A stretch of DNA of 64,000 nucleotides from Loxodes magnus (taxonomy: Eukaryota; Ciliophora; Karyorelictea; Loxodida; Loxodidae): the NCBI GenBank assembly GCA_946699065.1, contig CAMPDV010000845.1, positions 1 through 64,000 on the forward strand. Reading direction: 5' to 3'. Position numbers and translations under genes: made by a program. Below the pieces are notes generated by a model. That model was not told the origin of the DNA. It was given only the letters and a program-made list of their open reading frames with translations, and searched no databases. Numbering within the stretch: position 1 is the first letter of the stretch; each line of letters opens with the position of its first letter. Of this stretch, positions 20,866 to 60,844 are shown piece after piece.

Positions 20866-22782
20866 ATGAGTGGATAGAAAGAAAGTTTAAATAGCTATTG
20901 TGAAAAATAAGAAAAGCATATAAATTTTCTATATTCTTAGGGTATTTTAAATGACTGATGTTCTTAAGAAGAAATAAAGTGTTCTTAATTTGTTAAAGCA
21001 AATTAATTTGATTATGAAGATTAATCTAAAACCTAAAAACATGAGATAAGAGTATTTTAGACATAGTTTATGGATGTAAAGCGCAAGCTATGGAATCATA
21101 TTTATATCCTTTAATAGATATTTCAGTTTTTAAAGGAAAATGAAATAGCTAATTTATAGTAAGTTAGTAAAGCACTATACCACTTTAACTACTAGTTCTT
21201 TTAATTAATAATTGGAAGATACTCAACAAATGAAAATTATACGAAAAATAGAATTGAATGGACTCTCAAATAATTCGCAAGTTCAGATACAAAGTAAATA
21301 ATTATAAATATGAATAGCTTTTCAGAGAGCTTAAGTAGCTAAATAAAACAGATTTTTGAAAAATGCATATTGAGGAAGTAAACTTTAAACAGAAAGAGAA
21401 AAAGTCTTTAATAGCTTTTGGAGGTTACAATAGCGAATTGGCCTTCTCAAAAAATTGCACTGCCAGATATTTCAGCATGTGCCAATTTAAAAAGACTATC
21501 ACTTTACTAAATGAATTTATCTGATGAACAGCTTAATTTTTTGGAGAAGTTAAAACATTTGGATTCAATCTATTTGATAAGTGAATAGTGGCATCAAAAC
21601 TAGATTACAGGAAGTTTTCTGATTAACTATTGTCTAAGTTTAAATCTAAAGATACTAGAGATATGTAGTGAAAAGATTAATTTTGACTATATCTAAAATT
21701 ATTTGTCAAAAAAGGGAAATTAGCTTGAGATACTCAACATTAATAACAACTAACGATTCAATCAGTTCTGCGACTAATGTCATAAGATTAACAAAATAGA
21801 GATAACAGAGCCTAGTCAAATAAAGGAACAAATTTTAAGCAAAATACACAAGAGTAAGCTTTAAAGAATGATAATTAGAAATTCAACTTTGAGAGTTTAA
21901 GATTATTAACTAATTTTTTCTCATTAATGAGCTTTTCTTTAATAGGTTGAGTTCAGTGATTGCGAAAACTTTACAAAAGAACATTTATAGCTCTTACTCT
22001 AAAACTCTCCCAACTTAAAATCACTTATTTTTGAGTAGATATTATAGATTAATGATAGTGATTTCCAAATTATTAGTACCTATGGCTAAAATTATGAAGA
22101 GATTTCCTTTAAAGAAATGGAATAAATTACGAATGAAACTTTATAGCTCATATTTAGTAGCTGCAGAAAGCTTAAGAAAATTACTGCTTCTGAAATATAT
22201 GACTTATAGTTTGAAACCCTGTAAGTAATGAGAGAAAACTGCAAATAGTTGGAAAGCTTAGAACTGCATTCCTGTTTAAATTTAAATGAAAGCCATATAA
22301 AAGAAATTATATCCATTCTAAATCTAAAATAACTGACTTTGAATAATTTTAGTATTAAAAACGAATATGTGCATTTAATAATTTAAAGTCAGCTAAACTT
22401 AAGTTATTTAGACTTAAGCTACAATGAAGAAATCAACGAATTTGCCTTTCTTTTTGTGGATGAAGATAACAAAGAATACCCTATTTATAAAAAACTTAGA
22501 TTCTTAAATTTTTATTCTGAAAAAATAAGCGAAGAGTGGATTAAAAATTTAATAGAAAGATTTAGAAAAATAAAGATTTTAATATTTGAGTATGTTAGTA
22601 TAATAGATTTTGATATAAGTCTTAGCTTATTAAACATTTAAATGTATAACTCTTAATTTAAAGCTATAAATAACTTGAATCTTTTGGTCTTATTTATATA
22701 ATCAAATATTATATGCTTTATTTAAAAGTTATTAAATAACCTTTGTAGCAAAGCTATTTCATTAATCATTTATTATAATTGA
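20866..22782 (+). CDS. F-box / leucine-rich repeat protein
   Basis: A single frame of 639 codons runs from ATG 20,866 to TGA 22,780. Residues about 72-112 form an F-box: LWNHIYILQQIFQFLKENEI then LQQVSKALYHF. From about residue 185 onward leucine-rich units follow (CANLKRLSLYQMNLSDEQL, LNLKILEICSEKI, LEILNINNNQRF, LSYLDLSYNEEI, KLRFLNFYSEKI). F-box proteins link substrates bound by their repeats to SCF ubiquitin ligases. The first 40 residues hold several Cys/His (SYCEKQEKH, NDWCSQEEIKC) that may be a decayed B-box. Two codons are TGA (20,956 in NDWC and 21,928). Other tryptophans use TGG, so code use is mixed. It is alone in the spacer of the giant inverted repeat. The true end is uncertain: TAA at 22,639 could end a shorter product under another code. 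Confidence 0.65.
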
Positions 22783-26595: not shown

Positions 26596-26599
26596 TCTA

Positions 26600-26745: not shown

Positions 26746-26929
26746 TTAACCTTCTTGCTAAATAATAAAATAACTAGCTGTATATTAATTTAATAACTTA
26801 CATAAGCATATTTAATAAAATCAATTATACTCTATTATAACTTACTTTATACAACCTACTTTCCCTTTATTTTATTAATGATCTAGATATATTAAATCTT
26901 CTATTTAGATCAGTAACTAAAACTTATTA

Positions 26930-29900
26930 AAATGCTTGATATATTAGTTGATTAAAGTTAGTTTTAGTTAAGCTATTAATTTAATAGCTCTATTTAGTTA
27001 TTATTTTATTCTTAACTGTATAATGGAAGTTAATCCCTTAACTTTTCTATTTATTGCCTTCAATTTATTCTCTATTACCAAAACTTTAGCTAAGTAAATC
27101 TATGTAACGTCTCCTGCGCTTTTTAGTTCACTTAGTATTTAAGATTCTAATGGAACTATAAATTTCCCTTTTACTTCCATTTCAGAGACTATTTATGCTT
27201 TAGAAGAAGGAGAGCCTCATACAATATACATATCACCACACGAGCATAGCTTAGACTGCTTGAAATGTAAGAATTGTATAGATAAATGTGAAATAATGAG
27301 AGGAAGAACTTAGTAATAATAAGGGAAATAAATAACAATCTAGTAATTTAAGAAATGCTAAGACAATGAAAGTCACATAGAAATGTGCTATAATAAACTA
27401 CCAAATGCCACTATTAGCATCTTTAGAAATTGTACTTTGCTACTAGTAAACGACTACTTAGCTATGGTAGACTTAACAATTAGGATTCAATAATAAACTG
27501 GTAGCACCTAAATTTAGCCTTTGTAAGTAGCTTTTATTAATACTATTAAAGCTTAATTAGCCATAATAAACTCCAGTATTAGAGACTCACAATAAAGCTA
27601 AATTACCTGAATGTATTTTTATAAAAGTAGCTTTCTTCTGCAAAACTCATTGATAGAAAACTTTGAAGTTCCTTTAAGGAGCTAAATGATACTTCTTAAT
27701 AACTCCATACTGTCTATATAAAATAGCAGCTTAAAGTATAATAGAGAATAAATAATTTAATCTTATCAAAGCCAATTAATTATGAGCAAATCTATTTTCT
27801 AAATGAATACAGCCTCTTTAAATATAATGTAGCACTAAGAGTCAACTCTTATTATAGAAGACTCCTTAATTGAATAAAATTCAGCCTTAATTGCTGGCTT
27901 TTCATACTTCGTTAATTCAAATCTGAATCTCATCACAAGCAAAGTAATTTTAAATGGAGATAAATCTATAAGCGGGGTCCTTTATTTAAGTTAGTCAAAT
28001 TTGAGTATTATAGCGTGCAAATTTGAAGACAACAAAGGAGATTCTGGAGGTATTTATTTGTAGCAATCTTAAATTAAAGCTATATAGAATAGTAGCTTTT
28101 ATTCTAATTAAGCTAATATATACGGAGGATGTATTTATGCCTCATATTCAAACATAGAGATAATAGTAAACAGTATATTTTAGTAAAATAGTGCATTCAC
28201 ATCTGGAGGTGTTTTCTATACAGTCCATTCTAAAATTTTACAAATTGACGAATGCATATTTAGAAACAATAAAGCTGGTAGTGGTGGATCCTTCTATATT
28301 GACTTGACTAATATAACATTAATGGATAATCTTAGAGCTGAGGAAAATATAGCACTGAACTAGAATGGAAGCTTTTTGTTTGGAAGTTAGTCAAATATTG
28401 ATTAATTTAGTAATTGTAATTTTGCTAATAATATCGCTAAAGAGAACGGAGGAGTTATTTACTTAAAGTTTAGCTCTAGTATTAGAAACTTCAACCAAAA
28501 TTTTTTCAGAAACAACTCAGCAAGCAATTTTGGAGGCTGCATATTTTTAAATGCAACAAAGATAATAAGTATCTCTAATTCGCTATTTAAAAACAATACT
28601 TCAACAGATTACGGAGGAGTAATCTATTTTGAAAATTCAAGTATTAGTCTCATATACAACTCTTCTTTTGTAGAAAGCAAAGCTTAATATGGAGGCTCTC
28701 TAGCATCTTTTCATTCAAACTTAACTGAAATAAATTTGATAAAAGCTTTTAGAAATATAGCTGAAAGATTTGGAGGGTTTCATTTTTCATCAGCATCCAA
28801 TATTTATCTAATAGAAAATAGTATTTTCGTTTAGAACACAGCTAACTATGATGGAGGAGCATTTTTTTTAGTGGAAAATGAATAAGCTACAATTATCTAA
28901 AATAATATATTCAGCTAAAACGGGGCAAACAATGGAGGCAGTTTTTCTATAAGCTTCTAGGTCATTTAAAGCTTTATAGACAATTAATTTCTTTAGAATA
29001 ACTCAACTTATCAAGGAGGGTCTATTTGATTATATAAATCAAACGTTTAGCTAATTTAAAATTGTTCTTTTATATAAAACAAATGCAATAGAGGAGGTGC
29101 CTTGTATTTAGTAGATTCTAATATAACCTTGATGGAAAATGTTTAAGGTGTAGGAAATGAAGCTATATTTTAAAGCGGAGGATTCATGTATCTAAGTAAC
29201 TCATTTGTAACCATCATAAGAAATAGTATATTCTAAGAAAATTCTGCTTATTCTTAAGGTGGTGTGATTGATATATTCACAGATAAAAAGTAAAGTCTAT
29301 TTTATGTTATAAACTGCTAATTTGTTTCTAACTAAGCTTCTATAGGAAGTATTGGAAACTTTTGAAAACAGACAGTTGTTTTATAAGATATTTAAGCAAT
29401 ACTTAACAAAGCTAAATTCAATGGAAATTTTTACTTTGATCAGTCTAAAATAATATTTATTAATCTACAAGCTTATAGTAACAATGCATCTAAAGGAGCT
29501 ATTATTTTTAGCCTTAGTTCTTAAGTTACTTTAAATAATGCAGAAATGGGGAATAACGAAGCATATGATCAAGGAGGATGTATTTAACTTCAAAATGGAA
29601 ATTTATTTATTAAAGATTTAAAGGCTTATTAGAATAAGGCTAATTAAGGAATAATCTTATACCTATAGTAAGCTTCACCTGTATACATTCAATCAAGTTA
29701 GTTCTACAACAACACAGATACAGACTCTAACCTCTTAGAAATAGAAAATGTACAATTTATTCAGTTAGAAAAGTGCTAATTTAAAAGTAATTAAGTAAAT
29801 ATATTAATTTAAGCTTAGCAAGTAGATACTATGATCATAAGAGATAACTTATTTAAGTAGAATTAACTCTAGTATAGAATAATAGAAGTTAAAAACTCTA

Positions 29901-32900
29901 ATTTAGAAATTACTGAAAGTTAAATTGAATCAAACTATATTATAAAAGGAGATTTAATTGATATAACAGGTAAACAGTTTAACTTAACTAATTGCTTCAT
30001 TTATAATAACGAAGCTTTAAGTGGAGCAATGATTTACTTAAAATTCACTTAAACAATAATAAATAGTTCTTAATTTTGAGGAAATAAAGGATAGAATGGT
30101 GGCTCAATACAATCTTACACTTCAGACTATTAAATTATTAATTGCTAGTTCAAAGATAACTTAGCTTAAAGTTAAGGAGGAGTGATAGACGCCAATAAAG
30201 ATAAAATTTAAATTTATAATAGTTTATTTGAAGATAACCTATCTTTTTAAGGAGGAACCTTCTAATTTTTCTAAGTAGATGTACAAATTTACAATACAAC
30301 AGGCTTTAATAATTACGCAGCTTTTGGTGGATTTACCTATTGTGAATAATCAAAAATAATACTTACAAATTCATAATTTTATAATAATTCAGCATTAGAA
30401 GGAGCAGTTATCTACATGTTTATATCAAGAGTTGAGATGGATTTAATCAATTTTTATGATAATTGAACAAAACTCAAAGGTGGTGTTATTTTTCTTGATA
30501 TGTAAAGCAAATTAATTCTTACAAACTCAGAAGTTACCGAATGCTTAGCAGATGAAGGATCCTTTATATTCGCTTAAAATGGTATATTTTAATTAGACAA
30601 CATATCAATTCATGAAAATTAAGCATATAAAACAGGAATTATTAATCTTTGGAATTCAAATGGGGAATGCTAAATTACAAAATCATCTATATATAAAAAT
30701 AAAGGGAAAGCTTCTATTTATGTGTACTAGAGTCTCTTAAGCATTTACCAAATATCATTTATCAGTAACTCTGCAGATGACTTAACACCTGGAATTTTCA
30801 TTCATAACTCTGAAATTTATATAAGTGATTCTATTTTTAATGATCAAGAGTCACAAAAAGGAGTTTTTATATATAGTGAATATTAATCTAAAATATAAAT
30901 TTTAAATTCTAAGTTTCGAAATGAAAAAGGAAAGAAAGGAGGAGCTTTATACGTGTTTCAATCAGAAGCTGTAATAAGTAACACCAGTTTCAGTAATATA
31001 ATAGTCAATTTAAATGATGGTACTATTTATGCTTAGTAATCCAACTTAAGTATCTAAAATTCTATTTTTAACAATATAATATCTTAATAATAAGGAGGCT
31101 CAGTTGTTTTTATGATATAGTCAAATATGACAATGGAATAATGTACTTTGACTAACTATTATAGTACAGCAATAGCTATTTAATAAAATAGTGCATTAAC
31201 TTTAACTCTTACAACATTTAGAAATGGACAAAGCAAAAATTTTCCTGGTTCAGCTGTTTATTCATAAAACTCATAATTGGATATGTTTAATTGTACTTGT
31301 GATAATTAGATATCCTAAATAGGTTCTTGCTTTGCAATAGTAAATGATGAAGTATTTTATAAATATTTAATCTAATATAATCATTTTGAGAATGTTACAG
31401 CTTTATAATAAGGAGGTGTAGGATACTGCTATAATGCTAATATCACCTTTTTATATAATAACTTTGTAAGCAATAAAATTGAAAGAGGAGAGTAATCTAC
31501 TCTAAAAGGAGGAGCTTTAAGATTGATATGTGATAATAAATTAATTTGTGACTATAGAATAGAAAGGAATTTCTTTATTAATAACTCTATTTAAAGTACC
31601 AATAGTGAAGGAGGAGCTATTTCATTTTAAGGAACTATACCTACTTTCATTCCTGATATAGAAAGTTAAGAAATTTGCCTCTATTTCAAAAATAATTAAG
31701 CTTTCTATGGAAATCATTTTGCTTCATTTGCATATACTCTTAGTAGTACTAATAAGATAGATGCATTAGATCATTGTACAAACACCAAAATATAAAGATA
31801 ACTAGTTTCATAGTTACCTGGTTTTCCTATAACTGAGCATTTATTTTATATAATAGATATTTAAGGTTAGCTAATTAGAACTGATAACATCTCTTAAGCA
31901 TCTATTAATTCCAATAACAGTGATTCAGAGTTATCAGGAAAAACTAGAGTATAAGCTGAACTTGGTGTGTTTGATTTCAAGGATATAATAATAAAGGCAG
32001 AACCAAAAACTAATATTAGCTTATATATAGAAAGCAATGCCATTGATATTGATACTTTACCTTTTAACTTAAAGTTTATCAATAAATTTAATATGGAAGT
32101 ATACATTTAGAAATGCTTATAAGGATAAATACTTATAGAGGGTAATTCATGCTATAATTGTCTTTATGGATAATATTCCTTTAACTAAAGCAATCTGAAA
32201 TGCAAAGAATGTATTGCTGGTTCGACATGTTATGGAAGTGATTTGATTGGGCCTAAAAAAGGATTTTGAAGAAAAAGTTTTGAAACAGATAATATTCATG
32301 AATGTCCTAATAGCAAAGCATGTAAAGGAACTACTGTAAATGATAGTTTTGTGGATATTTATTTATAAACCACTGATTAGTAAAATAGAGAAGATCTCAA
32401 GAAAGGAATTAATTGAAAAGGAGAATGTGCTGAAGGTTATAAAGGTGTTATGTGTGACGTTTGCGAGAAAGATTGAACAAAAAATGATATAAATGAGTGT
32501 CAAAAATGTTTAAGTAAAAGATGATCTATCTTACTTGGTACTTTTACTATAACAATATTCATCATTTTCGTTATATACTTAGTTGTTCAAACTCTTAAAT
32601 CAGCAGAAAAGTAAGAGTCTTACTATGGGGTCTATTTAAAAGTGTTGACTAACTATTTCTAATTTTCTTCTTTAATTTAGAAGTTTTAGTTCAATTGATC
32701 AAATGTACTTAAAAGCTACTTTGAAGCAAATTAAAGAATAACGGCATAGACTTCTAATATATTGAAAATAGATTGTTTATTTTAAGAAGGAGAAGAGTTT
32801 TATTATAGCAAAGTATTGAGCATTTTGATGTTACCTTTAATAATTTTAGTAATATCCCTTGTATTAGTGAGTGTATACTCTTGCATAAAATATAAAAAGT

Positions 32901-34500
32901 TTAATAATTCTATCTTTATAACTATAATGAGTGTTTCCTACTTCCAAATTTGTACTAATTTAACCTCTACTATTTTTAGTGTTTTTAGTTGCTATAAGAT
33001 AGAAGATGACTATTACGTTCTAAACTCTTATACTGATATATAATGTTGAAAGGAAAGGCATATAAAGTTTGTCTTAATATTTGGTTTACCTTCACTACTT
33101 CTGTATGCGTTTTTTGTTCCTTTTAACGTTTTTATTTACTTATATAGGAAGAGAAAAATAATAAAATCCTACTAAATAAAGTCTTAGTTTGGGTTTCTAA
33201 CAATAGGGTACAAAGAGAATTTCTACTACTGAGAAATATTCAAAATTTACTAGAAATTTTAAATTTCCTTTATTTTTATTTTTCTATAGAAGAATACTAT
33301 AATTTTCTAGTTCTGATGCTTAATTCTTGTACTGCTGGTGTTTATTTATCTGTAGAGGTAAAATAATGCTTATATAAAAGAAGAGCTTAATAAACTAGAA
33401 GCTATTTACTTATATGTATCAGCATTTACACTATATATAGGTATCTATTTTGATTCTGGATAAAGATACTTAATTATTGATATCGCTTCTTTTATACTAC
33501 TAGTTGCTGCTAATGTATACTTCATTCTTGTCTGGATATACTACTTTATACTTCTCTTTGGAAGTCAATACTATAGAAAATATCTCAAAACATGCTTTTG
33601 CTTTATCTGCTTTTAATAAAAGTTAGATTTAATGGAAACTATTAATTAATGGGAAAAGTAAGAAGGAAATTATCTTAGAGACTAATAGAGTAAATGAAGG
33701 AAATGCTAAAATAAGATTTCCTCAATATTAAGAAGAAAAAGGATAAAGATCTTCAATGATAAAGAAGAAGTTTAATTTTATAACCTAAACTAAGAAAATA
33801 AGCATACCAAAAAACTAACCCTTCATTTTAAGTAGAAAGAAGATATAACTATCTTAAAATAAATGGACTTATCATATTTAATCAGCATTGGCTTATATGA
33901 ACTCTATAACTAAAACTCTAGAAACTTCATATTAACGCAAACAGAATATTGAAATTAAAGAATTAAGTGATTCTTATAAATATCAAGCTAAATTTAAAAT
34001 AATCCAAGTAATATTATTACTAATTAAAATAGTCATCAAGAAGAAATTTAAACCTAAAACTATTCAAATCAGACATAATAATCCTATTAATCAAATAATA
34101 GTTCATTTGGATAATAAATATAGTCTTAGATTTAATTAGAATCAAAATTATACAGTCATAAAAGATTGAAAAAGGCAAGCAAAATAAATCAAAAATAAAC
34201 AAGTTTAAGTAACCGTAAGTTTAATAAAGTTTTTATAAAAAAGACAGCTGATTTAAAGACAATTGCGGAGACTCTTGAAGAAACTTAATAGTAAAATGAA
34301 GTGTATAATTCTTAGCAAGCTGATTTAACATTAGAATAATCTTAATGCGAAATCTAAGTTTAAGATGAAAAGAAATGCGAAGAAAGAATAGCTAGTAATA
34401 AAAGTATAGATGTAGCAGAAAGAAATGGTGTTGAATAACATACTCTTATTAAAATAACTTAATAATCTTAATTTTTATCTTAATAAATTAATAAAAAAGT
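26930..34500 (+). repeat. giant inverted repeat, right arm
   Basis: Inverted copy of 9,400-16,890. Identity is very high over most of the arm. For example, the 70-codon stretch at 31,894-32,106 and its partner at 11,705-11,917 differ at a single residue when both are read on the strand opposite the gene. It drops sharply between about 27,480 and 28,290, then recovers. Confidence 0.85.
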
Positions 34501-36698: not shown

Positions 36699-36717
36699 AA
36701 CTTTTTCTAACATTTTA

Positions 36718-36919
<202 letters not shown>

Positions 36920-36996
36920 AATCTTAATTATGTAGATTATAGTCGTTTAATACCATACTATTATATCCATATTCTCATTTTTATTCCTTTATAATC

Positions 36997-37001
36997 AAAA
37001 G
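36997..37001 (-). terminator. Pol III terminator of tRNA-Gly
   Basis: Reading on the minus strand, TTTT lies directly after the discriminator region of the tRNA, the standard RNA polymerase III stop. Confidence 0.6.
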
Positions 37002-37073
37002 TACGCTATCCGGGACTCGAACCCGGGTCAACTGCTTGGAAGGCAGTTATCCTAACCACTAGACTAATAGCGC
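37002..37073 (-). tRNA. tRNA-Gly, anticodon UCC
   Basis: A 72-base cloverleaf on the minus strand. The acceptor is GCGCTAT paired with ATAGCGT (one G-U pair). The D arm carries AGTGGTTAGGA, the anticodon stem is ACTGC/GCAGT with loop CTTCCAA giving UCC, and the T arm is CCGGG-TTCGAGT-CCCGG. Both internal promoter boxes are intact (A box in the D arm, GGTTCGAGTCC B box) and there is no intron. The discriminator base is A. It strongly resembles eukaryotic cytosolic tRNA-Gly(UCC), which confirms nuclear rather than organellar DNA here. Confidence 0.95.
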
Positions 37074-37516: not shown

Positions 37517-39265
37517 TCACTTTAATATTATATGTTCTAACTAACTTATAAAAGTATCTATGTCTGGTCTTATATTCTCGTCGAAAGCTAAACATCTGTA
37601 GATAAATCAACTAATAAAGCTTCTTGCTATATTTCGTTTTAAAACCTAGGTATCATTTTATCGATATAGATTATTTACTTTAACTAAGAATCTAGAATTG
37701 GATAAAGAAGTTCTTCGTTGAATATTTCTACTCTTATACAACCTAAAGATTAGATATCACTTTTTTTACTCACTTTCTTTTCAAATTATTCAGGAGCCAT
37801 TCATTGATGTTCACCTTTCTATTCTACTGTTCTTAATCAGTTATCTTTATTAAATAATCCAAGAGTTAGTATTTTAGGAGAATCTTAATCATCTAACAGA
37901 ATATTAAGAGATTTGATTTCTTTATGAATTAAGTTTCTAGCGTGAATAGCCTTCAAACCTTCTGCTTTTTAACTTAGTAAGTTAAGTTTCTTATAATATC
38001 TAGAATGGCAGTTTTAGAATAGTTACTTTGTCTAAATAATTTAGAATAAACTTCCTTTATTCTAAAAATCAGTTAAAAGAGCGAGTTCTTAAGTATCGAT
38101 AGCAAATCCTATAAGTTTTTAAACTCTTAAGCTATTTATTAGCAGTAGTTCTTTACATTCAAATCAGAACTAATCTATTATTTTATCATTCTATTAGTTA
38201 AATACTTTAAATCCATACATGAATCCTTAGATACATAATAGATAAGTAGTTCCGAAATCATCACAAGCCAATTTTTGCAATTCCCCTAAAAATTCATTGT
38301 TAGGAACCAAATCTCTATATTTCCATATTCTTACTTCAAAACTACTATCTACTTGCTATAGGAACTTCCTTATTTCTTCTTCTGTTATTTTACTCTTGAC
38401 TTAGTTTACTTCACTTTTAATTTTTGTTTAGGGAATTTCTAATTCAGGATTTAGTTGTTTTGCTTTGCTGAAGCATTCTAGTGCTTCTTATTCCTTGTTT
38501 AAAGCTTAAAGACAAAGTCCTTTATCATAAAAAGCATTTGAGTACTTAGGATCTAGTTAGATAACTTAGTTGAAGCATTAGATAGCTTCAAGATGATTTC
38601 CTAATTTAAAAAGAGAAAAACCTTTGAGTTTGAAATGATCTGGTAGAGTGGAATTAAGTTTGATGGTTTAATTAAGACTTTCAATGGCTTCATTGTATTT
38701 TTCTAGCTTAATAAATATCGCTCCTTTATTAAAGTGAGCATCTACTAATCTAGGATCCAGCTTCGTAGCTACATTTAAACTCTATATCGCCTCGACGTTC
38801 TTTCCTAATTATCCCAGCAAAGTTCCTTTGTTATAGTGAGCTGCCACTAAATTATCATCTAATTAGAGAGCTATATCATAGTTCTATATGGCTTCGTTAC
38901 ATTTTCCTATTTGTTTCAGTAATGATCCTTTATTCAAATAAGCAGATACCATTTTAGGATCTAGTTTGAGAGCTACATTGTAGCTCTATATTGCTTCATC
39001 ATATTTTCCTAGCATCTTCAGGACAACTCCTTTATTACAATGAGCAACCGCATCATTAGGATTTAAATTAAGAGCTAAATCATAACTCTAGATTGCTTCA
39101 TCATATTTCCCTCAGTGTTTTCAATGCAACTCCTTTATAAGTATGAGCAGCAGCATATTTGGGATCTAGCTTGATAACTATATTAAATTACTCGATAACC
39201 TTATGATAATTAGCTTCCTTCATAAATTTTAATCCTATTCTGTTATATTAAGTAGCTTGAGACAT
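37517..39265 (-). pseudogene. TPR-repeat protein kinase, inactive and frameshifted
   Basis: From ATG 39,265 the frame gives about eight TPR units of the pattern NKGxLLKxLGKYDEAIQSY-ALKLDP, then a kinase-like domain (VRIWKYRDL, HARNLIHKEIKSLNILLDD, QWMAPEQFEKKVSKKSDI, RCLAFDENIRPDI). The conserved W of WMAPE is TGA (37,801-37,803). Key catalytic residues are lost: the HRD aspartate is Glu (HKE) and DFG is replaced by TLG. There is a one-base insertion near 39,112 inside the second TPR and another frame change near 37,640 between subdomains IX and XI. It is therefore a pseudokinase or, more likely, a decayed gene. TPR-kinase fusions of this layout are common in ciliates. It has no operon-like partner; the tRNA gene lies about 440 bases beyond its end. 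Confidence 0.75.
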
Positions 39266-41492
39266 CTATATAATGATAACTAATAATTAATATTAATTTA
39301 AGTTTAGTAGTTGCTAATATAATGCTTATATTAGTTTTTTATTCTAAGTAATTAATACCTTTATTCTACTTTTTATTTATTTACTTTACTCTTTAGCTTC
39401 TTTATTTGTACTTATAGACCTTTAATAGTTTTTATTAATGTATTATTGCTTTTAATGTATAATTAGTATTATTTATAATAGAAGTAATAAAGAGTTTACT
39501 GTTGCTAGTAGATAGTTACTAATAATCAAATATTTGCTTATTTATGCAATTATAACTATTAGCTATTTAGTATATGTAACTATTTTATTGTTTCTTTAAT
39601 TATTATTTCTTTTTTCTTTTTTACCATTTACCCTGTTTTTTAAGCTAGTTCCTTTAATTTCTGACTAATATTAATAATTTAGTATAGTTATAACTTTAGT
39701 TTACTTATCAATCAAATATTTTTACTATTTATTTGTTTTTAAGAGGCTTTAGTAATTTCAATTATTATAAAAGTAGCCTTCCTTATACACTTGTAACTTT
39801 AATAATACCTCATTTTTCATTTTCCTGTTAATATACAATAAAATAAAGTAGATTATTATTTAATATAGATATTTCATCTGATAAACCAACCTTAAATTCC
39901 TTAATCTATAAATTACTATCTACTAAGTAACTATCCCATTGAAACCTTTTAAATAAAAGACTAAGTAGGTAATCTAAATTTATTTATTTAGCTTAAAAAA
40001 ATGAAAAGTAATTAGCTTTACTTAATACTGGAATAGCTTAATTATAATGATGCTAATTATAGACTATAACTAAATTAAGGCTTATAATAGGAAATATTTA
40101 TAATAATTAGCTAAAACTAAATAATTTTATTACTATACAGCTAGTATTGCTTAGTCATCTATTTATATCCCTATAAGGATATCTTTTAATGATTTACATA
40201 ATTTATAGATATTAATGATGTTTATTTGACTAATTAATTTAGCATAATACTTCTGAATAAGTTAGGAAATATTCTAAAGTTTTAGCATATAAATAATTAT
40301 AAATATACCTAAGTATTTATATGATAATCAATTCTGTAATAGTCAGCTATTTAAATTCACTAAGTTTACTTTATGATTTTCTACTTCTTTAACTTTCAAT
40401 GATGTTATTCAGATTTTTTTAATATCTTGAGTATTATTGATTATTAAACTGAAACTATCATTATAATTTATTTTAAGTTTTAGAAAAGTTGTATGTAAAA
40501 GGCTTTTTGAAGCTGAGTTTATCTATTTAATCAGATGTTAGAATACATACACTTAACTTGTCATTTTGTAAATTATTTCTTCAATTAAGTGGAAAAATTA
40601 CAGATCAGGTTATTCTCACCTAGCTTCTCTTAATTAAGTATATTAATATCACTCTACAAGCATTTTCGTTACCTATCTTTTTTATATAATTTCAGAACAG
40701 ATCTGCTTAAATTTCTTATCTTTTCTTATTATTATATAAAAGAATACATTTAAGACTCCAAATAGTATCATTCTTAGGTTTTTAATTTACTGTTACTAAT
40801 ATCTTAAATGTGAAACAATTACCTCTACTAATCATGCTATCTGAACTTCGATTTTAAGATTATTATACCTAAATATTTTAAGCTAGCATATAATTTATCT
40901 ATCTGCTCAATTGAGTAATTCTAACATAGGACTAAGAATGCTAAATGTGATATTTCAAGTGAGATGATTGAAGTAGAGCCAATGATGTTAGAGACGACTT
41001 TATTATTTCTCCTGAGAGATAAAAGATAAATATGAGAAGAAAAATAATTAATGAATTCCACATTCATAAAGAATGCTATAAGGTGCTGTAATGTTAAGAA
41101 GATTACATTGATTAGGATTTTAATTAGTTAACTGTTCTTATATATCTCCTTTCTTTTCTTTAGACTAATAAGAACTTAAATTATTAATAAAAGCTTTTTC
41201 AATTAAGTAATAAAAAATATAGGAACTTATTATGATTTAGTTCAAAGCTATTAAGCAAACTATATTATTTTTAATTTAATTTAATTTAATATTATGATTT
41301 AGTTAGTTAAAATATAAATATTTTATTTGACTATATGCAGGGAAATGATAAATTATAGAAAGAAAATAGTAAAATAAGTATTCTAAAGTAAGTTACTTAA
41401 AAGTATATTTCATGATATCTAGTTTAAAGTATCTTATTAATAATCTAGGCTTAAATATTAACACTATCACTAAATTTTATTATATTAATAAA
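39266..41492. other. no gene recognised
   Basis: AT-rich DNA upstream of the TPR-kinase gene. Poly-T and TTA runs occur, but there is no motif that I can name on either strand. Confidence 0.4.
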
Positions 41493-46642: not shown

Positions 46643-46930
46643 TTAATTTGAAAAATGGATTAGATAGGTAAATTGAAATGAATTATGAATGATATTTTGA
46701 TATTAATTGAATTATATTGGAGTAAAATACTAATAGTAATATATTATAGTATTTACTATTTTATTCTGTTTGAATAATGGTAATAAATAGCGTATTTAGT
46801 ATATGATTTGATTGGTTTTAGTTACTAATAAAGACTAATTTAGATAACTTAAAGGATTTAAATATTATGCATTTTATTAATAATTTATAATATATTTACT
46901 AAGTTATCAGCTTATAGTTTTAAACTTTAT

Positions 46931-48998: not shown

Positions 48999-49077
48999 CC
49001 TCAAAACTTGATTTGGCTGTTGCTGAGTAGTTCTTACTGGTTTATCATATTAATCTCGAAAATTTATTATATAAAAA

Positions 49078-49803
49078 ATGGTCCTGAACAAGTAATCATC
49101 ACCTATCTACCCAAATAAAGCTCAAAATGATTACTTAATCGATCTGGAATTTCTCTTAAATGAGAACCAAAAGCTATAATATTCGTTTCAAGAGCTACAT
49201 AGAAATATAATAGTCCTATAGGAAAGCATCACTGGAATTCACATCAATAACCATGAGATCAAATAGCAACTTAACCTTATTCCTTCGACTGAACAAATTA
49301 ATTAGAGAGTTTAAGCGATCGAAGAAAAATTAGAGTTTTTTCGATAATATAATCAACAAATTTGTGAAAAATGGATTTCTTAGATCATGAAAAATCAAGG
49401 AAATAATCCGATGGACATAGAATCAAAAGATCCATAGTAATTTATTATCAGGAAAAGAAAAATAGCATGCTGATACTGTAAAAAAAATGAGACACAAGAT
49501 AAGAGACTGTTGGTAGTTATTAAAAAAACAAAAATACAAAAGCAAAAATAAAGGTATAATTTAAACAAGTTGTGATGCACACATGATGGCAGAATTCAGA
49601 AAAAATGATTGTAAATCACTTAGAATGTTTCCTTAAATCAAGTGTCTGTAAGTAATTTCAACAGAAGTTTGTTAGAATTCGACACAGAAGAGATACTGAG
49701 AAAGAAAAGATTCAGATTTATCAAGAGACATGATAACGAAGATTGGAACAAATTTAAAGTAGAAGGTGAATTTTATTAAACTTAACAAAAATTTGATTTG
49801 TGA
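49078..49803 (+). CDS. small coiled-coil / CWxC zinc ORF1-type protein (A1)
   Basis: A single frame of 242 codons from ATG 49,078 to TGA 49,801. Residues about 20-110 are heptad-like (LEFLLNENQKLQYSFQELHRN, RVQAIEEKLEFFRQYNQQI). Then come NPMDIESKDP, RKRKIACWYCKKNETQDKR, LWCTHDGRIQKKWL and a basic C-terminus. CxxC with a later C-x-H may bind zinc. The tryptophans of CWYC, LWC and KWL are TGA; those of CEKWIS and DWNKF are TGG. It converges on the coiled-coil ORF at 49,921-50,691 and is followed by a TTA tract and two hairpins. Probably the RNA-binding protein of a non-LTR element; not matched to a named family. Confidence 0.55.
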
Positions 49804-49911
49804 CAAAACTAATAATGTTGAAGTCAAGATAATCTATTATATTATCTTATCTTAAGATTGAGTTTATTATTATTATTATTTTAACTAAATGTAAAATTAA
49901 AGTTTGCATAT

Positions 49912-49968
49912 CCTGGGTTTTCAACCAGGTTTCTGCTGACAAGTTTTTTTCCGTGGTTGCTCTCCACG
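49912..49968. other. two adjacent hairpins between convergent ORFs (A1)
   Basis: CCTGG-GTTTTCAA-CCAGG (49,912-49,929) and CGTGG-TTGCTCT-CCACG (49,952-49,968) lie next to the short TTA tract. In copy 2 (58,106-58,162) both stems are unchanged and the one difference seen is in a loop. They could be 3'-end structures recognised by a retroelement reverse transcriptase or transcription-end signals. Confidence 0.5.
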
Positions 49969-50691
49969 ACCTTTTTTTAAAGTGAACGGCTACCACAAAG
50001 ATTCTCTTAGTTTCTTGTTCATAGTTTCTATTTATATATGCCTTACTCAGTTATCCAAAGTTTGTTTAAGTTTCTTCAGGTCCTTTATTCTTCATTGTTT
50101 TGAGTTATCTTCATTTCTTACAATGTCTTAGTAAATGATACCAAGATTAGCAGTACCAACAATTTTAATATCATTTTTCTAATTTCTATTTTTAAAAAAC
50201 TTTTTTCTCCAGCATCTCAATTCTTTTGCTTATGTTTGCATCATTTTTTCTTAATTTTACTTTTCTTTATGTTGTATTTTGTGCTAATCTTCTTCTATGA
50301 TCATTCTTTGTGATTAATTAAAGTTAGTTTACGACATTTCATAAAGTTAATTTTCTGTTACTACTGAGTTTTTAATCAGTTAACTTTTGAGAATTAGCAG
50401 TTCGTTATTTTAGTCTTCTATGTAATTTATTAGCTCCTGGATTTTTTCTCCTTGATTAAAAAATATCTCTTCATATTTTGCAATTTTTGCTTTCATTTTT
50501 CCGATTTCGCTTTGGAGTAAATTGTTATTTTTGGTTTCAGGGTTTTATTGTTCATTCGGACCAACCATTACTTTTCCCTCTGAAGACGAGCTAGATTCTC
50601 TATCCTGTCTTTGCTTTTTTAGCTCCTCGTTCGTTACTTGTTTTCTTGCTTTTCTTTGTTATTTCTTAGAAAGACGAATGTTCTTCTCCAT
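49921..50691 (-). CDS. coiled-coil ORF1-type protein (A1)
   Basis: A single frame of 257 codons from ATG 50,691 to TGA 49,921. The N-terminus is basic (MEKNIRLSKKQQRKARKQ), with a Ser/Glu-rich patch, then a long coiled coil (EIGKMKAKIAKYEEIFFNQG, IQELINYIEDQNNELLIL), RCWRKKFFKNRNQKN and a basic end. Internal TGA codons (QWRIKD, DNWVRH) read as Trp, beside TGG in RCWRK and SLWQP. There is no zinc knuckle. This architecture fits a LINE ORF1 trimerising protein, but no family match can be asserted. In copy 2 its start codon ATG is ATT. Confidence 0.5.
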
Positions 50692-51226
50692 TTTTTTGTC
50701 TTAAGATTGAGTTTTTATCGAGAATATAGCTATAATAATGGCTTGGCTTTATTATTGATTATACAAGGGACATTTTTATATATATAGATTTTAGTTTAAA
50801 TGATTAAAGGAATAATGTATTTAAGGGTTTAAGATGTTGACTTGATGATAGTAGTGATTACTTAATTAGTATTTAGATATAGGTATAGCTTAATGATTAT
50901 TTGATTATAGTTTTGATTTAATTAGTTAAATAGTAATCTAAGTAGCACTTGTATAATTTGAATATAAGGATGTATTTAAAGATAGTTTTTTGACTATGTT
51001 GAATATAAGTATGTTATAAGCTGTATGTTTGTTTCTGAATAATGATAATATTTGAATAATAGATTTTTAAAGATATTTAGATAAAATTTGATTCTTTATT
51101 TATTTCACACGCTTTAAATATTTTAATAAGTAGTAACATATTTACTTAATTAAAGATCTTTAAACTACTTCTTTACATATAAAACTAAATTTATTATAAA
51201 TAATATAGATATTATTATTAGTTTTA

Positions 51227-52621
51227 TCAGTTATGACTTCTAATACTTCTATAACTCAATTTTTCTAAATCAATCCTCATTATTGAAACTCTTCTCTATT
51301 CTATAGCAAAAACATATCCATAGTTATTTCTTATTTTCATCTCCGTTAAAGCTACAACATCTTTAAAAATTTAACTTTATTGTCATTATTCTTTATTTCT
51401 TTTATATATTCTTCTTGAATATTCTTTCGTAAAATAATTTTTCATACCTCCAATTATGACAAAAGGCTCTAAACAAACTATAGGTTAAGCAACAGCTTCA
51501 GGAAGACTCAAATTTTACTTACTTCATCTATCATTCTATATGTTATATTTTCATATATCTTTTAAAATCTATTCTTTCTAATTAAACCCTCCAAAAGAAT
51601 AAATATTTTATTCATCTCTATCTACTACTAAAGTTTAACAAGCTATTCTAAATGGAAATTAAGAGCAGTTTTATCATTTACTTTAATTTTCTATCTTTAA
51701 CTTTTCTACTGATTATAAAACTTGATAATTACTTGTAATTCCTCCAACCACGTAAAGTTATTTTTAAGCAGCTGCTATTCCAAAACCATCTCTTCCCTCA
51801 TTTAGATCACAAAATTTTATACCATTACCTTCATAATCGAATTATCAAGTTTCTTTTATTCCTTTCTTTTAATTTAAGTTATATCCTCCAATTAAATATA
51901 ACTTATTTTAATATTCTATACTTTTATTGTCTAAAGGAATTATAATTTAAACTTAGACTTATCGTATTTACTCTGTTTAAATATTAAATAAACTTAATTT
52001 TTTAATTTTACAATCAAAATAGTGAATATAGTTAGATTATATAAAGTTTTAGCTTAGTTTATGTTAATTAGTCTAAATCTTATTTGGTTACTTAGTATTG
52101 TGTTATAGTTTTTATCTTATTAGATTGTAAGTTAATTTAGAGTTTAGTATTGTAGGTGGTTATGAGTTATATTAGAGTATAGTTGGTTTTAGTGATTAGT
52201 AGAATTAGATAATATTTGAGTGTTATTTTTGGTAGATAAATGTTGGTTAATGATTGATGATGATATTAGTTAGTGGTATTATGAGAGTATTACTAATGTT
52301 TGATTATTTGGTTGTAATGGTTTTAGATTTTTCCATAATTTACCTCCTTATCTCTTTTAATTTCTATCTAGCATCTTAAATCTTTTATATGTATTATTAG
52401 TTTTAAAATATCACTCTTATTAAATCACTTTCTTAAGGTAAATCATCAAATCTAAAATGGAATCCTTTTTAACAAATAGGACATTACATTATGCCTTATA
52501 ATCAGTACTGAGTATTCAAACACAAACCACAGTAAATATGTCCACAAGGTAAGACAGTTGGAAGAGCATTAGTTAAGTTGTAATCTTCTAAGCAGATTAA
52601 GCATTTTGGTAACGCTTACAT
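51227..52621 (-). CDS. RING-finger / kelch-repeat protein (A1)
   Basis: An unbroken frame of 465 codons from ATG 52,621 (MQALPKCLICLEDYNL) to TGA 51,227. Residues 7-50 form a complete C3HC4 RING: C7-x2-C10, C26-G-H28-x2-C31-x2-C34, C47-P-I-C50. A Gln/Asn-rich linker follows (about 60-245), then kelch blades: LYLIGGYN with ETWQFDYEG, LYVVGGITSN with SKWQNCSQFP, IYSFGGFN with DIWKYNIQNDRWSKQ, and VIIGGMKN. RING proteins with kelch substrate-binding propellers act as E3 ubiquitin ligases. All six tryptophans (QYW, ETW, SKW, DIW, DRW, EQW) are TGA and none is TGG. It is unusual as cargo of a repeat otherwise made of retroelement ORFs. Confidence 0.75.
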
Positions 52622-52851
52622 TTTTATTATTATTTAGACTACAAAAGCTATAAAGGTAATTTATAACAGTTACCATCAAAAATTAGTATATAAATATCTA
52701 TTATTACATTATTACTTTATTTATTATAAAATTAGATATTTTTGCATACTCATTTATAATTAAAATATAATTAGATTATTATGCAAATCATATTACTATC
52801 TAAATTAGTTTACATATATTATACTTCTTAATCTTAAAAATAATACAACTA

Positions 52852-54640: not shown

Positions 54641-55130
54641 ATACCATTATATTATTAATAAGATAAATTTCTTTAAAAATAGATTAAAAGTGAACTAAAA
54701 GGGGAAATTATAATTAATCAAACTCAGCCATTTAGATTTCCTTGGATTCAAAAAATTCTATTATTTATTTGAGTAAATTAGTATACTAAATCATCAAAAC
54801 TAACTGCTATATCTATTTCTTATCAATCAAACATTATACAGCTACTACCTCAAAGCCCTTTTTTTAAAAACATTAACCTTTAAAAACTTTAAATCTTTCC
54901 CATTCCCTTATAGGGCCGTGATTGAAATGACATATTATAGTATTTACTATTATATTCTGTTTGAATAATGGTAATAAATAGCGTATTTAGTATATGATTT
55001 GATTGGTTTTAGTTACTAATAAAGACTAATTTAGATAACTTAAAGGATTTAAATATTATGCATTTTATTAATAATTTATAATATATTTACTAAGTTATCA
55101 GCTTATAGTTTTAAACTTTATTTTAACTTT

Positions 55131-57190
55131 TGTAAATTTTCCTTATTAGCTAGTATTTCTTCAATACTATCATTATAATGGATTTATAGAATTAATTATT
55201 ATATTTAATTGATTAGTTATAGAATTCAAGTCACTTTTCTTTACTCAAAAGTATTTTCTCAATAACTTATAAAGTAAGAGTTAATCAAATAGGCTAATAT
55301 AGCTAAATATTTTCTTAAGTTTAAAGAAATTATTTATGTTCTTACCTTTTAATTAGATATTAAATAGTAAGATAATTACAGTTTAATGGTGAAAACATAT
55401 CTGTTTGCTATTCAAATTACCTTTATTTATTTAGTCCATTAAAATGTTTAATTTTTCAATCCATTATCTCCTGTTTGTTATCTTATGTTAGTATACAATA
55501 TTTTCTTTATCTCATTAAACTTATTTTTGATACTTTTTTAATTCATTTCTTAAACGTTTTCTTTCTTCTTTTTAAGTATCAGCAACATATCCACAAGTTA
55601 ATTTAACTTCTTATTTTTGCTATATCATTATCTAGCTTAACCAGCTTCAAAGAATATGTAGCTCATTGTGAAGCTTTTCCAATATTTTTCCAATTTTCAG
55701 TTTTTAGTAATATAACCTTCTTACTTATGATCTATATCTGCTATTTTAACAATTAATAGATATCATCTAGTATTCTTTCCTAAACAATTCTTATGCTAAT
55801 TATGCTATTAGTCCCTTAAAAAATAGTCTTAAACTTTCTTTTGTAGTAATCTAGGTTGGATCTTATGCTGAATTATTGCATTATAGTTTTAATTAATTCT
55901 AATAGCTACTATCCTACTGGATTTAGTTTATTTGCTACAAATTATGTATATGTGCATTAAATCTCATACTATACTTATAAACTTAAATTGCTTTTAATTA
56001 GGCTTTCATAGAAACCGATTCATTATTCCTCAAGTAGGCGCATATACATTAAGTAAGATTCATACAAATTACAACCCTTCCAGTATTTCATTTTATTCCA
56101 TTTACTTCATACTCTCTCCATATCAATTCTTCTTTAATATATAAAGCCACTCCTTTACTAAGTCTAGTTCCTCCACATTATTCCTTTATTTAAACCATAT
56201 CTTTAATTCAATCTATAAACACTTCTTGAGTCACCATAATATATCTTTTTCAACCATTCATTTACATAACTCTTCTTTGTTCCACTTTATTCCTCTTATA
56301 TTATCAGTTCTTATGTTTAATTAATTTAAAATATCCACATTTTCTTGATCTTCATTGCTTGATTCTTTCTATTTAGTAACATCAATTTAGCTTAGTCTTT
56401 TCAAAACCAAATTACTCTAATGTTTGTATTTATGTTCAGGTTTTATGTATGCTATCTTTTCTGATATTATTTCTTGTTTATTATTAAAAGTAATTGCATC
56501 TATTAGTTATGGAAGTTAGTTAGTTACTTATTGAAGCTTATTTTTTCAAAAGTCAAATTCATTTTTTCTCTCATGGTGTTAAACTTTGGCTTTTCCATAT
56601 ATCTAAGTAGCAGAAATCATTTTATCTAAGCATTTATTCAGTTAAATGATCTTTTATTATTCTATCAATTGTTGCCTATCTCGCGTATAATTTAAATAAT
56701 TATTTAAGCAATTTTATACTTTAAGATTTAAATTTTTGCATGCTACTCTTCTTTATAGTTTCTTTAACATTTCTTTAGTTTTTCTATTTTTATTTATATA
56801 TCTCAGTGTGTTATTTCTTGTTACATATTTACCACTTTTTTTGATATTCCAATATAACTGATTATTAGCTTGATTTATTTTTATCTTCTATATTACTTAG
56901 TACTGTGTCTAATTTTTTGACAGTTTACATATCATCATATTGCTAATTGATTTAACTTTATTCATAATTTTTATTCTTCCAGTAAAGTAGGAATATTTTC
57001 TGGATAAGTGGTTCAAATATTTCTGGGTACATAATAGTTCTATCATCAAATCATGTTATTCCTTTTATTGTAAAAAACTGTTTTTTTATATTTTCGAAGG
57101 GTTTTAACTATTTTTTTGTTTGAGCTAAGCAGTTATCTAACCTAAAGAGTATTTTATTAGTTCATCATATTTTCCTTGCTTTTTCTCCAT
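55131..57190 (-). pseudogene. retroelement ORF: leader plus endonuclease (A2)
   Basis: Copy of 46,931-48,998, with the equivalent ATG at 57,190 and the same frame change inside the endonuclease domain. Extra small indels are seen in the leader (for example near 56,750, where bases are inserted before the T-rich run). No reverse transcriptase is attached. Confidence 0.5.
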
Positions 57191-57270
57191 CATAAAAACT
57201 TGATTTGTATGTTGCTGATTAGTTCTTACTGGTTTATCATATTAATCTCGAAAATTTATTATATAAAAAA

Positions 57271-57997
57271 ATGGTCCTGAAAAAGTAATCATCACCTATC
57301 TAGCCAAGTAAAGCTCAAAATGATTACTTAATTGATCTAGAATTTCTCTTAAGTGAGAATCAAAAGCTATAATATTTGTTTCAAGAGCTACAGAGAAATA
57401 TAATAGTCCTATAGGAAAGCATCACTGGAATTCACATCAATAACCATGAGATCAAATAGCAACTTAACTTTATTCCTTCGACTGAACAAATTAATTAGAG
57501 AGTTTAAGCGATCGAAGAAAAATTAGAGTTTTTTCGATAATATAATCAATAAATTTGTGAAAAATGGATTTCTTAGTTCATGCAAAATCAAGGAAACGAT
57601 CCGATGGACATAGAATCAAAAGACCCATAGTAATTTATTATCAGGAAAAGAAAAATAGCATGCTGATACTGTAAAAAAATGAGACACAAGATAAGAGACT
57701 TTTAGTAGTATTAAAAAAAACAAAAATACAAAAGCAAAAATAATGGTATAATTTAAACAAGTTTTGATGCACGCAAGATGGCAGAATATTCAGAAAAAAT
57801 GATTGTAAATCACTTAAAATTCTCCCTAAATTCAAGCGGCTGTAAATAATTTCAGCAGAAGTTGGTTAGGATTCGACACAGAAGAGATACTGAGAAAGAA
57901 AAGATTCATATTTGACAAGAGACATGATAACGAAGATCGGAACAAATTTAAAGTAGAAGGTGAATTTTATTAAACTTAACAAAAATTTGATTTGTGA
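57271..57997 (+). pseudogene. small CWxC zinc ORF1-type protein, frameshifted (A2)
   Basis: Copy of 49,078-49,803 from ATG 57,271 to the homologous TGA at 57,995. After CWYC (W again TGA) the poly-A run is seven instead of eight bases, which shifts the frame. A two-base insertion near 57,788 shifts it again, so the homologous stop is out of phase with the start. It is probably inactive unless the homopolymer difference is a read error. Confidence 0.5.
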
Positions 57998-58105
57998 CAA
58001 AACTAATAATGTTGAAGTCAAGATAATCTATTATATTATCTTATCTTAAGATTGAGTTTATTATTATTATTATTTTAACTAAATGTAAAATTAAAGTTTG
58101 CATAT

Positions 58106-58162
58106 CCTGGGTTTTCAACCAGGTTTCTGCTGACAAGTTTTTTTCCGTGGTTGTTCTCCACG
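58106..58162. other. two adjacent hairpins between convergent ORFs (A2)
   Basis: Same pair of stems as at 49,912-49,968. The change noted is in the loop of the second hairpin (GCTCT to GTTCT). Confidence 0.5.
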
Positions 58163-58888
58163 ACCTTTTTTTAAATTGGACGGCTACCACGAAGGATTCT
58201 CTTAGTTTCTTGTTCATAGTTTCTATTTATATATGCCTTACTCAGTTATCCAAAATTTGTTTAAGTTTCTTCAGGTCCTTTATTCTTCATTATACTTGAG
58301 TTATCTTCATTTCTTATAATGTCTTAGTAAATGATACCAAGATTAGCAGTACCAACAATTTTTATATCTTTTTTCTAATTTCTATTTTTAAAAAACTTTT
58401 TTCTCCAGCATCTCAATTCTTTTGCTTATGTTTGCATCATTTTTTTCTTAATTTTACTTTTCTTAATGTTGTGTTTTGTGCTAATCTTCTTCTATGATCA
58501 TTCTTTGTGATTAATTGAAGTTAGTTTACGACATTTCATAAAGTTAATTTTCTGTTACTACTGAGTTTTTAATCAGTTAACTTTTGAGAATTAGTAGTTC
58601 GTTATTTTAGTCTTCTATGTAATTCATTAGCTCCTGGATTTTTTCTCCTTGATTAAAAAATATCTCTTCATATTTTGTAATTTTTGTTTCCATTTTTTCG
58701 ATTTCGCTTTGGAGTAAATTGTTATTTTTGGTTTCAGGGTTTTATTGTTCATTCGGATCAACCATTAATTTTCCCTCTGAAGACGAGCTAGATTCTCTAT
58801 CCTGTCTTTGCTTTTTTAGCTCCTCGTTCGTCACTTGTTTTCTTGTTTTTCTTTGTTATTTCTTAGAAAGACGAATGTTCTTCTCAAT
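58115..58888 (-). pseudogene. coiled-coil ORF1-type protein, start codon lost (A2)
   Basis: Copy of 49,921-50,691. The frame is intact for 258 codons with one added codon, but the initiator ATG is ATT (58,886-58,888). Downstream Met residues could still start a shorter product. The coiled coil and basic segments are preserved. Confidence 0.45.
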
Positions 58889-59449
58889 TTTTTTGTCTTA
58901 AGATTGAGTTTTTATCGAGAATATAGCTATTATAATGGCTTGGCTTTATTATTAATTATACAAGGGATATTTTTAAGTATATAGATTTTAATTTAAACGA
59001 TTAAAGGAAATAATGTATTTAAGGGTTTAAAATGTTGACTTGATGAGTAGTGACGACTTAATTAGTATTTAGATATAGATATAGCTTAATGATTATTTGA
59101 TTATTTGATTATAGTTTTGATTTAATTAGTTAAATAGTAATCTAAGTAGTACTTGTATAATTTGAATATAAGGATGTATTTAAAGATAGTTTTTTGACTA
59201 TGTTGAATATGTTTTTGCATGTTATAAGCTGTATGTTTGTTTCTGAATAATGATAATATTTGAATAATAGATTTTTAAAGACATTTAGATAAAATTTGAT
59301 TCTTTATTTATATCCTCTTATTAAGGTATTTAGTAGATTAACCTCTTTAATAAGTAGTAACATATTTACTTAATTATATATCTTTAAACTACTTCTTTAC
59401 ATATAAAACTAAATTATAAATACTAATATAGATATTTTTATTATGTTTA

Positions 59450-60844
59450 TCAGTTATGACTTCTAATACTTCTATAACTCAATTTTTCTAAATCAATCCT
59501 CATTATTACAATTCTTCTCTATTCTATAGCAAAAACATATCCATAGTTATTTCTTATTTTCATCTCCGTTAAAGCTTCAACATCTTTAAAAATTTAGCTT
59601 TATTGTCATTACTCTTTGCTTCTTTTATATATTTTTCTTGAATATTCATTCTTAAATCCATTTTTAATGCCTCCAAATATAATAAAAGGCTCTAATGAAA
59701 TTATAGGAAAAGCAACACTTTCAGGAAGACTAAAATTTTACTTACTCCATCTATCATTCTATATGTTATACTTTCATATATCTTTTAAGGTCTATACTTT
59801 CTAATTTTAACCTCCAAAAGAATAAATATTTTATTCATCTCTATCTACTACTAAAGTTTAACTTGCTATTCTAAATGGAAATTAAGAGCAGTTTTATCAT
59901 TTACTTTAGTTAGCTATCTTTAACTTTTCTACTGATTATAAACCTTGACAATTGTTAGTAATTCCTCCAACCACATAAAGTTATTTTTAAGCAGCTGCTA
60001 TTCCAAAGTCACCTCTTCCCTCATTTAGATCACTAAGTTTTATTCTATTACCCTCATAGTCAAATTATCAAGTTTCTTTTATTCCTTTCTTTTAAGTTTC
60101 ACTATATCCTCCTATTAAATATAACTTATTTTCATATTCTATACTTTTATTACCATAAGGAATTATAATTTAAACTTAGATTTATCGTATTTACTCTGTT
60201 TAAATATTAAATAAACTTAATTTTTAAATTTTTCAATCAAAGAAGTGAATATAGTTAGATTATTTGGAGTGGTAGCTTAGTTTATGTTAATTAGTCTAAA
60301 TCTTATTTGGTTACTTAGTATTGTATTATAGTTTTTATCTTATTAGATTGTAAGTTAATTTAGAGTTTAGTATTGTAGGTGGTTATGAGTTATATTAGAG
60401 TATAGTTGGTTTTAGTGATTAGTAGAATTAGATAATATTTGAGTGTTATTTTTGGTAGATAAATGTTGGTTAATGATTGATGATGATATTAGTTAGTGGT
60501 ATTATGAGAGTATTACTAATGTTTGATTATTTGGTTGTAATGGTTTTAGATTTTTCCATAATTTACCTCCTTATCTCTTTTAATTTCTATCTAGCATCTT
60601 AAATCTTTTATATGTATTATTAGTTTTAAAATATCACTCTTATTAAATCACTTTCTTAAGGTAAATCATCAAATCTAAAATGGAATCCTTTTTAACAAAT
60701 AGGACATTACATTATGCCTTATAATCAGTACTGAGTATTCAAACACAAACCACAGTAAATATGTCCACAAGGTAAGACAGTTGGAAGAGCATTAGTTAAG
60801 TTGTAATCTTCTAAGCAGATTAAGCATTTTGGTAACGCTTACAT
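59450..60844 (-). CDS. RING-finger / kelch-repeat protein (A2)
   Basis: The frame is exactly as long as copy 1 (465 codons, ATG 60,844 to TGA 59,450). The RING and linker are essentially identical to copy 1, while the kelch part differs by many conservative changes (LPEAVAQPIVCLEPFVIIGG becomes LPESVAFPIISLEPFIIFGG). The tryptophan of DRWSKQ is TGG here (59,747-59,749) and TGA in copy 1 (51,524-51,526). Other tryptophans remain TGA. Conservation of frame and length with mostly mild replacements suggests the protein has been under selection. A putative E3 ubiquitin ligase, as for copy 1. Confidence 0.75.

Follow-up and report, generated by a model that had tools for sequence, protein, structure and literature searches.

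The closest described relatives of the code examined here are found in karyorelict ciliates. Loxodes magnus (PMC11441545) and Parduczia sp. (PMC4967479) use NCBI table 27, in which UAA and UAG (UAR) specify glutamine and UGA is either tryptophan or stop. In Loxodes, UGA is described as the sole stop codon (PMC11441545). Genomes with this code have AT-rich 3' ends and are depleted of in-frame UAA and UGA ahead of the stop (PMC11441545; PMC4967479). Condylostoma likewise uses all 64 codons as sense, but any of the three can also end translation in that organism (PMC4967479). Published UGA usage stands at 0.120% for Parduczia and 0.042% for Condylostoma (PMC4967479). The tRNA-Trp of Blastocrithidia nonstop, Condylostoma magnum, Blepharisma and Loxodes carries the same CCA anticodon, and the uppermost pair of its anticodon stem is disrupted (PMC13092985). 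Such a 4-bp-stem tRNA-Trp(CCA) raises read-through of UGA in reporters (B. nonstop and C. magnum), and its presence in Loxodes is reported in the same paper, citing Swart et al. 2024 (PMC13092985). The word 'tRNA' is absent from the main text of PMC11441545. A literature search on tRNA tandem arrays in ciliates showed nothing on Loxodes among the 8 of 32 matches listed.

The stretch analysed here (the window) comprises bases 1-64,000 of contig C845 from an assembly of 705,730,643 bases in 7,843 contigs, and is most likely macronuclear DNA of the karyorelict Loxodes magnus (Karyorelictea). We hold with high confidence that it follows NCBI code 27, with UAR read as glutamine and UGA read as tryptophan by a 4-bp-stem tRNA-Trp(CCA) and as a stop near transcript ends. 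The first-pass annotation had proposed a code of Condylostoma or karyorelict type with UGA as tryptophan within genes and stop at their ends. That reading is correct, and the code is already published; the sense meanings hold, and the table is the karyorelict one rather than that of Condylostoma (table 28). Translation with table 11 listed no open reading frame of at least 150 amino acids in the 64-kb window (ATG, GTG and TTG starts; frames running off the ends left out), which illustrates how standard-table annotation fails in such genomes. Reading TAA and TAG as Gln and TGA as Trp yielded Pfam matches to a giant beta-helix gene, a TPR and kinase gene, a RING and kelch gene, and a reverse transcriptase. 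Pfam searches of the window's other frames gave nothing above curated cut-offs. The features of the window are as follows.

2400..5603, minus strand: LINE-like retroelement fragments in several frames, with TGA at the NxRPISL site (4,236)
9420..17071, minus strand: inverted giant-gene copy, the second in the window, pseudogene-like, 92% identical to the first copy with eleven single-base indels against it
20836..22482, plus strand: possible F-box/leucine-rich-repeat open reading frame at the start of the annotated interval 20866..60844, with weak matches under curated cut-offs
27023..34400, plus strand: giant beta-helix/membrane protein gene of a multicopy family (Pfam Beta_helix, 6e-28)
37001..37073, minus strand: tRNA-Gly(TCC), the sole tRNA gene found in the window
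37519..39273, minus strand: TPR and protein kinase gene, pseudogene-like or carrying assembly errors, with the WMAPE TGA at 37,803 and a candidate terminal TGA at 37,519
51229..52621, minus strand: RING-kelch copy 1 (464 codons), with six internal TGA and a terminal TGA at 51229
59452..60844, minus strand: RING-kelch copy 2, with a terminal TGA at 59452

The reassignment had been proposed from TGA codons at conserved tryptophan sites of unrelated families. All of the named sites are present, though not every TGA falls at a tryptophan site. Corrected positions are 37,803 (-) for the kinase WMAPE, 32,267 (+) for GFWR and 33,230 (+) for YYWE of the giant protein, and 4,236 (-) for NWRPISL of the reverse transcriptase, the last lying outside the interval 20866..60844 to which the observation had been assigned. 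The C-TGA-YC motif of a putative small zinc open reading frame occurs at 49,471 (+) and again at 57,664. Within the window alone, comparison between copies is too weak to assign a meaning, as it offers one TGA/TGG swap and one TGA/TAA difference, with TGA standing opposite AGG, TAT or TGT at three further sites.

Conserved protein kinases from elsewhere in the genome were used to infer codon meanings. Forty domains, the best-scoring of the family rather than a random draw, were aligned with the three codons masked, and each codon was scored against the alignment columns. TGA was assigned to Trp (+86.6 bits over 21 sites; next Tyr, -1.5), TAA to Gln (74.1 bits, 171 sites; Lys second, 21.2) and TAG to Gln (72.7 bits, 93 sites; Lys second, 17.6), and the controls TGG, CAA, AAA and TGT were all recovered correctly. 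The near-invariant tryptophan column of the D-x-W-S motif alone holds 27 TGG, 10 TGA and 3 Tyr (n = 40). Internal TGA at Trp sites thus occurs in conserved genes, being found at this tryptophan in 10 of the 40 kinases and also in a kynurenine aminotransferase, where each of the three displayed alignments, two of them to the same enzyme, places it at the GWKxGW tryptophan. The aminotransferase has one other TGA, which faces Ser in its best match and a gap in the third. This gene lies at a locus (L031) that also carries the second of the eRF1_1-family matches, presumably pelota. The kinase of the window itself has two apparent frame breaks and catalytic motifs that we take to be unusual (HKEIKSLN and TLG), so that it is apparently a pseudokinase, a pseudogene or a product of assembly errors; the PDB alignments shown for it cover the TPR part only.

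The giant gene, predicted to be open only under this code, does remain open through the 2,459 codons read, which include 16 TGA, 3 TGG, 139 TAA and 44 TAG; as a stop, TGA would cut it 16 times. Past 34,400, its next in-frame TGAs are at 34,829 and 34,868. Tryptophan codons in this gene end in A at a frequency of 0.84, much as the other A/G codon pairs do (0.73-0.86 for the six compared), and TGA (16 against 44.1 expected from positional base composition) and TGG (3 against 9.9) are depleted alike, a pattern that points to more than chance. The cysteine-rich and membrane part of the protein belongs to a multicopy family, with 84 scored matches, the window's among them, and identities down to 48% in a count that treats reassigned codons as mismatches, by which the window's own stretch scores 93%. 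Nine tryptophan columns were followed through 13 sequences (the window copy and 12 paralogues), the window having TGA in seven of them and TGG in two. Their 117 cells comprise 73 TGA, 39 TGG and 5 other codons; the window TGA at 33,695 was unaligned in this comparison. Column inference on this set gave Trp for TGA (+91.0; next Tyr, -20.0) and Gln for TAA (97.1) and TAG (66.2), again with TGG, CAA, AAA and TGT all correct. Differences among the paralogues fall at codon positions in the ratio 13372:8897:21245, and the family looks to be under purifying selection. The TGAs of the giant gene away from Trp sites are a TAA in the second copy (30,077) and a member of a variable column (32,522). The second copy forms the 7.7-kb arm of an inverted repeat (window 9420-17071 versus 26754-34390, 92% identical) and is the frame-broken, minus-strand member of the pair.

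RING-kelch genes show both meanings of UGA within one family. The count of six internal TGA and no TGG in copy 1 is confirmed (first bases at 52504, 51847, 51676, 51553, 51526 and 51385), with a seventh TGA, the terminal one, at 51,229. In copy 2 one internal TGA is replaced by TGG and one Cys codon by TGA. The assembly holds 92 scored matches to this gene, the window's own included, among 3,390 first-look candidates, and all 92 stay open for 460-468 codons with 3-8 TGA each; RING-kelch is a very large multicopy family whose frame has been kept. Fourteen copies (12 fetched and the 2 of the window) were compared by column. The six TGA columns of the window contain 59 TGA, 25 TGG and no other codon (84 cells); TGA and TGG swap at four of the six, and the other two are TGA in 14/14. 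All 14 copies have TGA as their terminal codon and TAA as the next triplet, and length differences among copies start about 35 nt past the terminal TGA. The combination of internal TGA/TGG swaps and an invariant terminal TGA supports tryptophan within the gene and stop at its end, as the first-pass annotation had supposed. Seven more columns also contain TGA. At codon 204 it is present in 7/14 copies, the rest having Cys (4), Tyr (2) or Phe (1); in the other six columns it appears in 1-3 copies, opposite Gly, Gln and other residues. Stray TGAs therefore arise too. Differences among the copies are spread over codon positions as 2146:1999:2682, and selection on them looks weak. PDB alignments of the window kelch could not be used, being too weak where the TGAs lie. 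The two window copies lie in a 6.0-kb direct repeat, 95% identical at 8.2-kb spacing (46741-52721 and 54932-60944), and three equal-scoring copies on contig C132 are spaced at 6,910 bp.

The 3' end of the kelch gene resembles those of table 27 genomes. The 47 codons ahead of the kelch stop contain no TAA or TGA (chance 0.004), which includes the roughly 20 codons over which UGA and UAA depletion is a trait of this code, and the 60 nt after the stop are 10% GC. The TGA end, the pre-stop depletion and the low GC that follows fit the published Loxodes rule. All of the few gene ends examined are TGA (14/14 kelch copies, eRF1 and the candidate kinase end). Inspection of eRF1 revealed an intact gene that keeps the motifs we take to be NIKS and GGQ, the Gln codon of the latter being TAA. 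Against the solved eRF1 chains shown, differences lie at TAS-NIKS (RAQ-NIKS) and YLCDNKF (FLCENTF). Its tryptophans are encoded by 4 TGG and 0 TGA, it ends in TGA, and one TAA lies 14 codons ahead of this stop; pre-stop TAA and TGA are thus depleted rather than absent.

The complement of tRNA genes agrees with the assigned meanings. As the first-pass annotation had anticipated, both tRNA-Gln(UUA) and tRNA-Gln(CUA) genes are present. A tRNA-Gln pattern allowing up to 2 mismatches matched the assembly 362 times (reversed control, 0); four matches were read by ARAGORN, and the anticodons TTA, CTA and TTG sit on one common body. The expected tRNA-Trp(UCA) was not recovered: the exact pattern had 0 matches over the assembly, a search that a diverged UCA tRNA would escape. 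The tRNA-Trp pattern with up to 1 mismatch had 130 matches (reversed control, 0). The anticodon was CCA in all of the 100 matches listed of these 130 and in 18 of the other 30, seen at locus L095. Among the 100, 48 are on contig C67, 49 on C148 and 3 on C110. The first two groups form tandem arrays at C67:482300-491368 (unit of about 187 bp) and C148:155441-173068 (about 241 bp), covered by loci L076-L091 and L095-L097. We read 21 distinct copies from C67 and 21 from C148 in full, and all carry a mismatch at positions 27-43 (A27-C43 on C67, T27-C43 on C148), which leaves an anticodon stem of 4 bp. The anticodon stem has 5 bp in the three C110 copies, whose T stem is imperfect, and the C67 array closes with a truncated copy. 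Compared with the 4-bp-stem tRNA-Trp of the other organisms (PMC13092985), those seen here stand in two tandem arrays, each with its own mispair. An Rfam tRNA search (63 scored of 42,786 candidates) was silent on Trp and Gln; the 30 loci that it gave each contain a tRNA-Lys by ARAGORN. These tRNA-Lys(TTT) genes (L001-L030) lie in tandem runs at 527-bp and about 1,753-bp spacing, some adjoining tRNA-Ala, which suggests that tRNA arrays are possibly general in the genome.

The amino-acid meanings, the tRNA genes lacking a UCA match and the contrast between internal and terminal kelch TGAs come from the present analysis; in our reading, UAA and UAG are decoded by dedicated tRNA-Gln(UUA) and tRNA-Gln(CUA). 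By extension from the literature, the tRNA-Trp(CCA) whose anticodon stem is shortened to 4 bp by the 27-43 mismatch would be what reads UGA, and termination would probably be triggered by proximity to the transcript end, where eRF1 could outcompete the tRNA. Under a code whose one stop codon doubles as a frequent sense codon, the ribosome's choice between tRNA and release factor is directly testable. The window offers a natural experiment of this kind, as the internal TGAs of kelch swap with TGG and the terminal one never does in the copies read.

Other codes would account for parts of these data. In a Tetrahymena-type code, UAR would be glutamine and UGA a dedicated stop, so that the internal TGAs would be nonsense changes in decayed or germline-limited genes. 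The frame breaks in one giant-gene copy and in the kinase, the few TGAs at non-Trp sites and the repeat-rich setting with its retroelement fragments speak for this view. However, TGA swaps specifically with TGG across copies (25 of the 84 kelch cells with no other codon, and 39 of the 117 giant-gene cells with five others), purifying selection seems to act on the giant-gene paralogues, the 92 kelch matches keep their frame despite their TGAs, and conserved kinases and the aminotransferase have TGA at Trp sites. We give this explanation very little credence, and the paralogue swaps rule out decayed germline genes for the kelch and giant-gene families.

UGA could alternatively encode another residue, such as Cys in a Euplotes-type code, for which the kelch column at codon 204 might argue, since TGA alternates there with Cys, Tyr and Phe. 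Yet column inference places Trp far ahead in both the kinase and giant-gene sets and leaves Cys outside the top four for TGA, although TGT is correctly assigned to Cys in each; UGA = Cys is ruled out by both sets, and the chance of any such residue is negligible. A Condylostoma-type code shares all of the sense meanings and would differ in also using UAA and UAG as stops near transcript ends, a difference that the few gene ends examined bear on narrowly. All of these ends are TGA, and the published sole stop of Loxodes is UGA (PMC11441545), which makes UAR stops improbable. Paralogue columns, kinase columns, tRNA genes and the invariant terminal TGA of the kelch family bear out UAR as glutamine and UGA as both tryptophan and stop.

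The use of UGA differs between gene classes. In the giant gene and kelch copy 1 together, TGA makes up 22 of the 25 Trp codons, close to the A-ending share of five other A/G pairs (0.80; P = 0.44), whereas the 40 kinases, in which the A-ending share of those pairs is 0.73, use it for 29 of 105 (76 TGG; P = 4e-21). Its share is 74/101 in the 14 kelch copies and 92/136 in the 13 giant-gene sequences. Per codon, TGA reaches 0.65% in the giant gene, 92/6,506 (1.4%) in its family and 29/10,179 in the kinases. The families of the window use TGA for most of their Trp codons, unlike the 0.120% usage of Parduczia (PMC4967479). The kinase share and the eRF1 gene without internal TGA indicate that UGA and UGG do not exchange freely, and the TGAs at non-Trp sites that some of them are missense or nonsense changes. 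From this we infer that conserved genes pay a cost for UGA, and the window hints that they avoid it; its prominence in multiplying families would suggest that a residual termination cost is tolerated there. It is possible, though we propose it tentatively and with some doubt, that the genome tunes UGA = Trp according to gene class and through tRNA dosage, with the 4-bp-stem tRNA-Trp amplified into two arrays. The arrays and the gene-class difference in UGA use may be unreported.

Several matches in the window were of lower quality. The retroelement matches RVT_1 above its cut-off in one frame (36.4 bits) and below it in the TGA-bearing frame (23.2 bits), and its Exo_endo_phos_2 match (23.8 bits) is also below the cut-off. 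The F-box/leucine-rich-repeat candidate has in-frame TGA at 20,956 and 21,928 and four TGG. A wrong frame of the kinase matched DDHD at 1.4e-05, under its cut-off, which cautions that weak Pfam matches are unsafe in such DNA. Downstream of the TPR-kinase gene we also identified a perfect (ATT)66 microsatellite (window 36719-36917). A direct repeat of about 3.1 kb, 89% identical, joins the two ends of the window (1-3127 and 60855-64000) at a distance of 60.9 kb.
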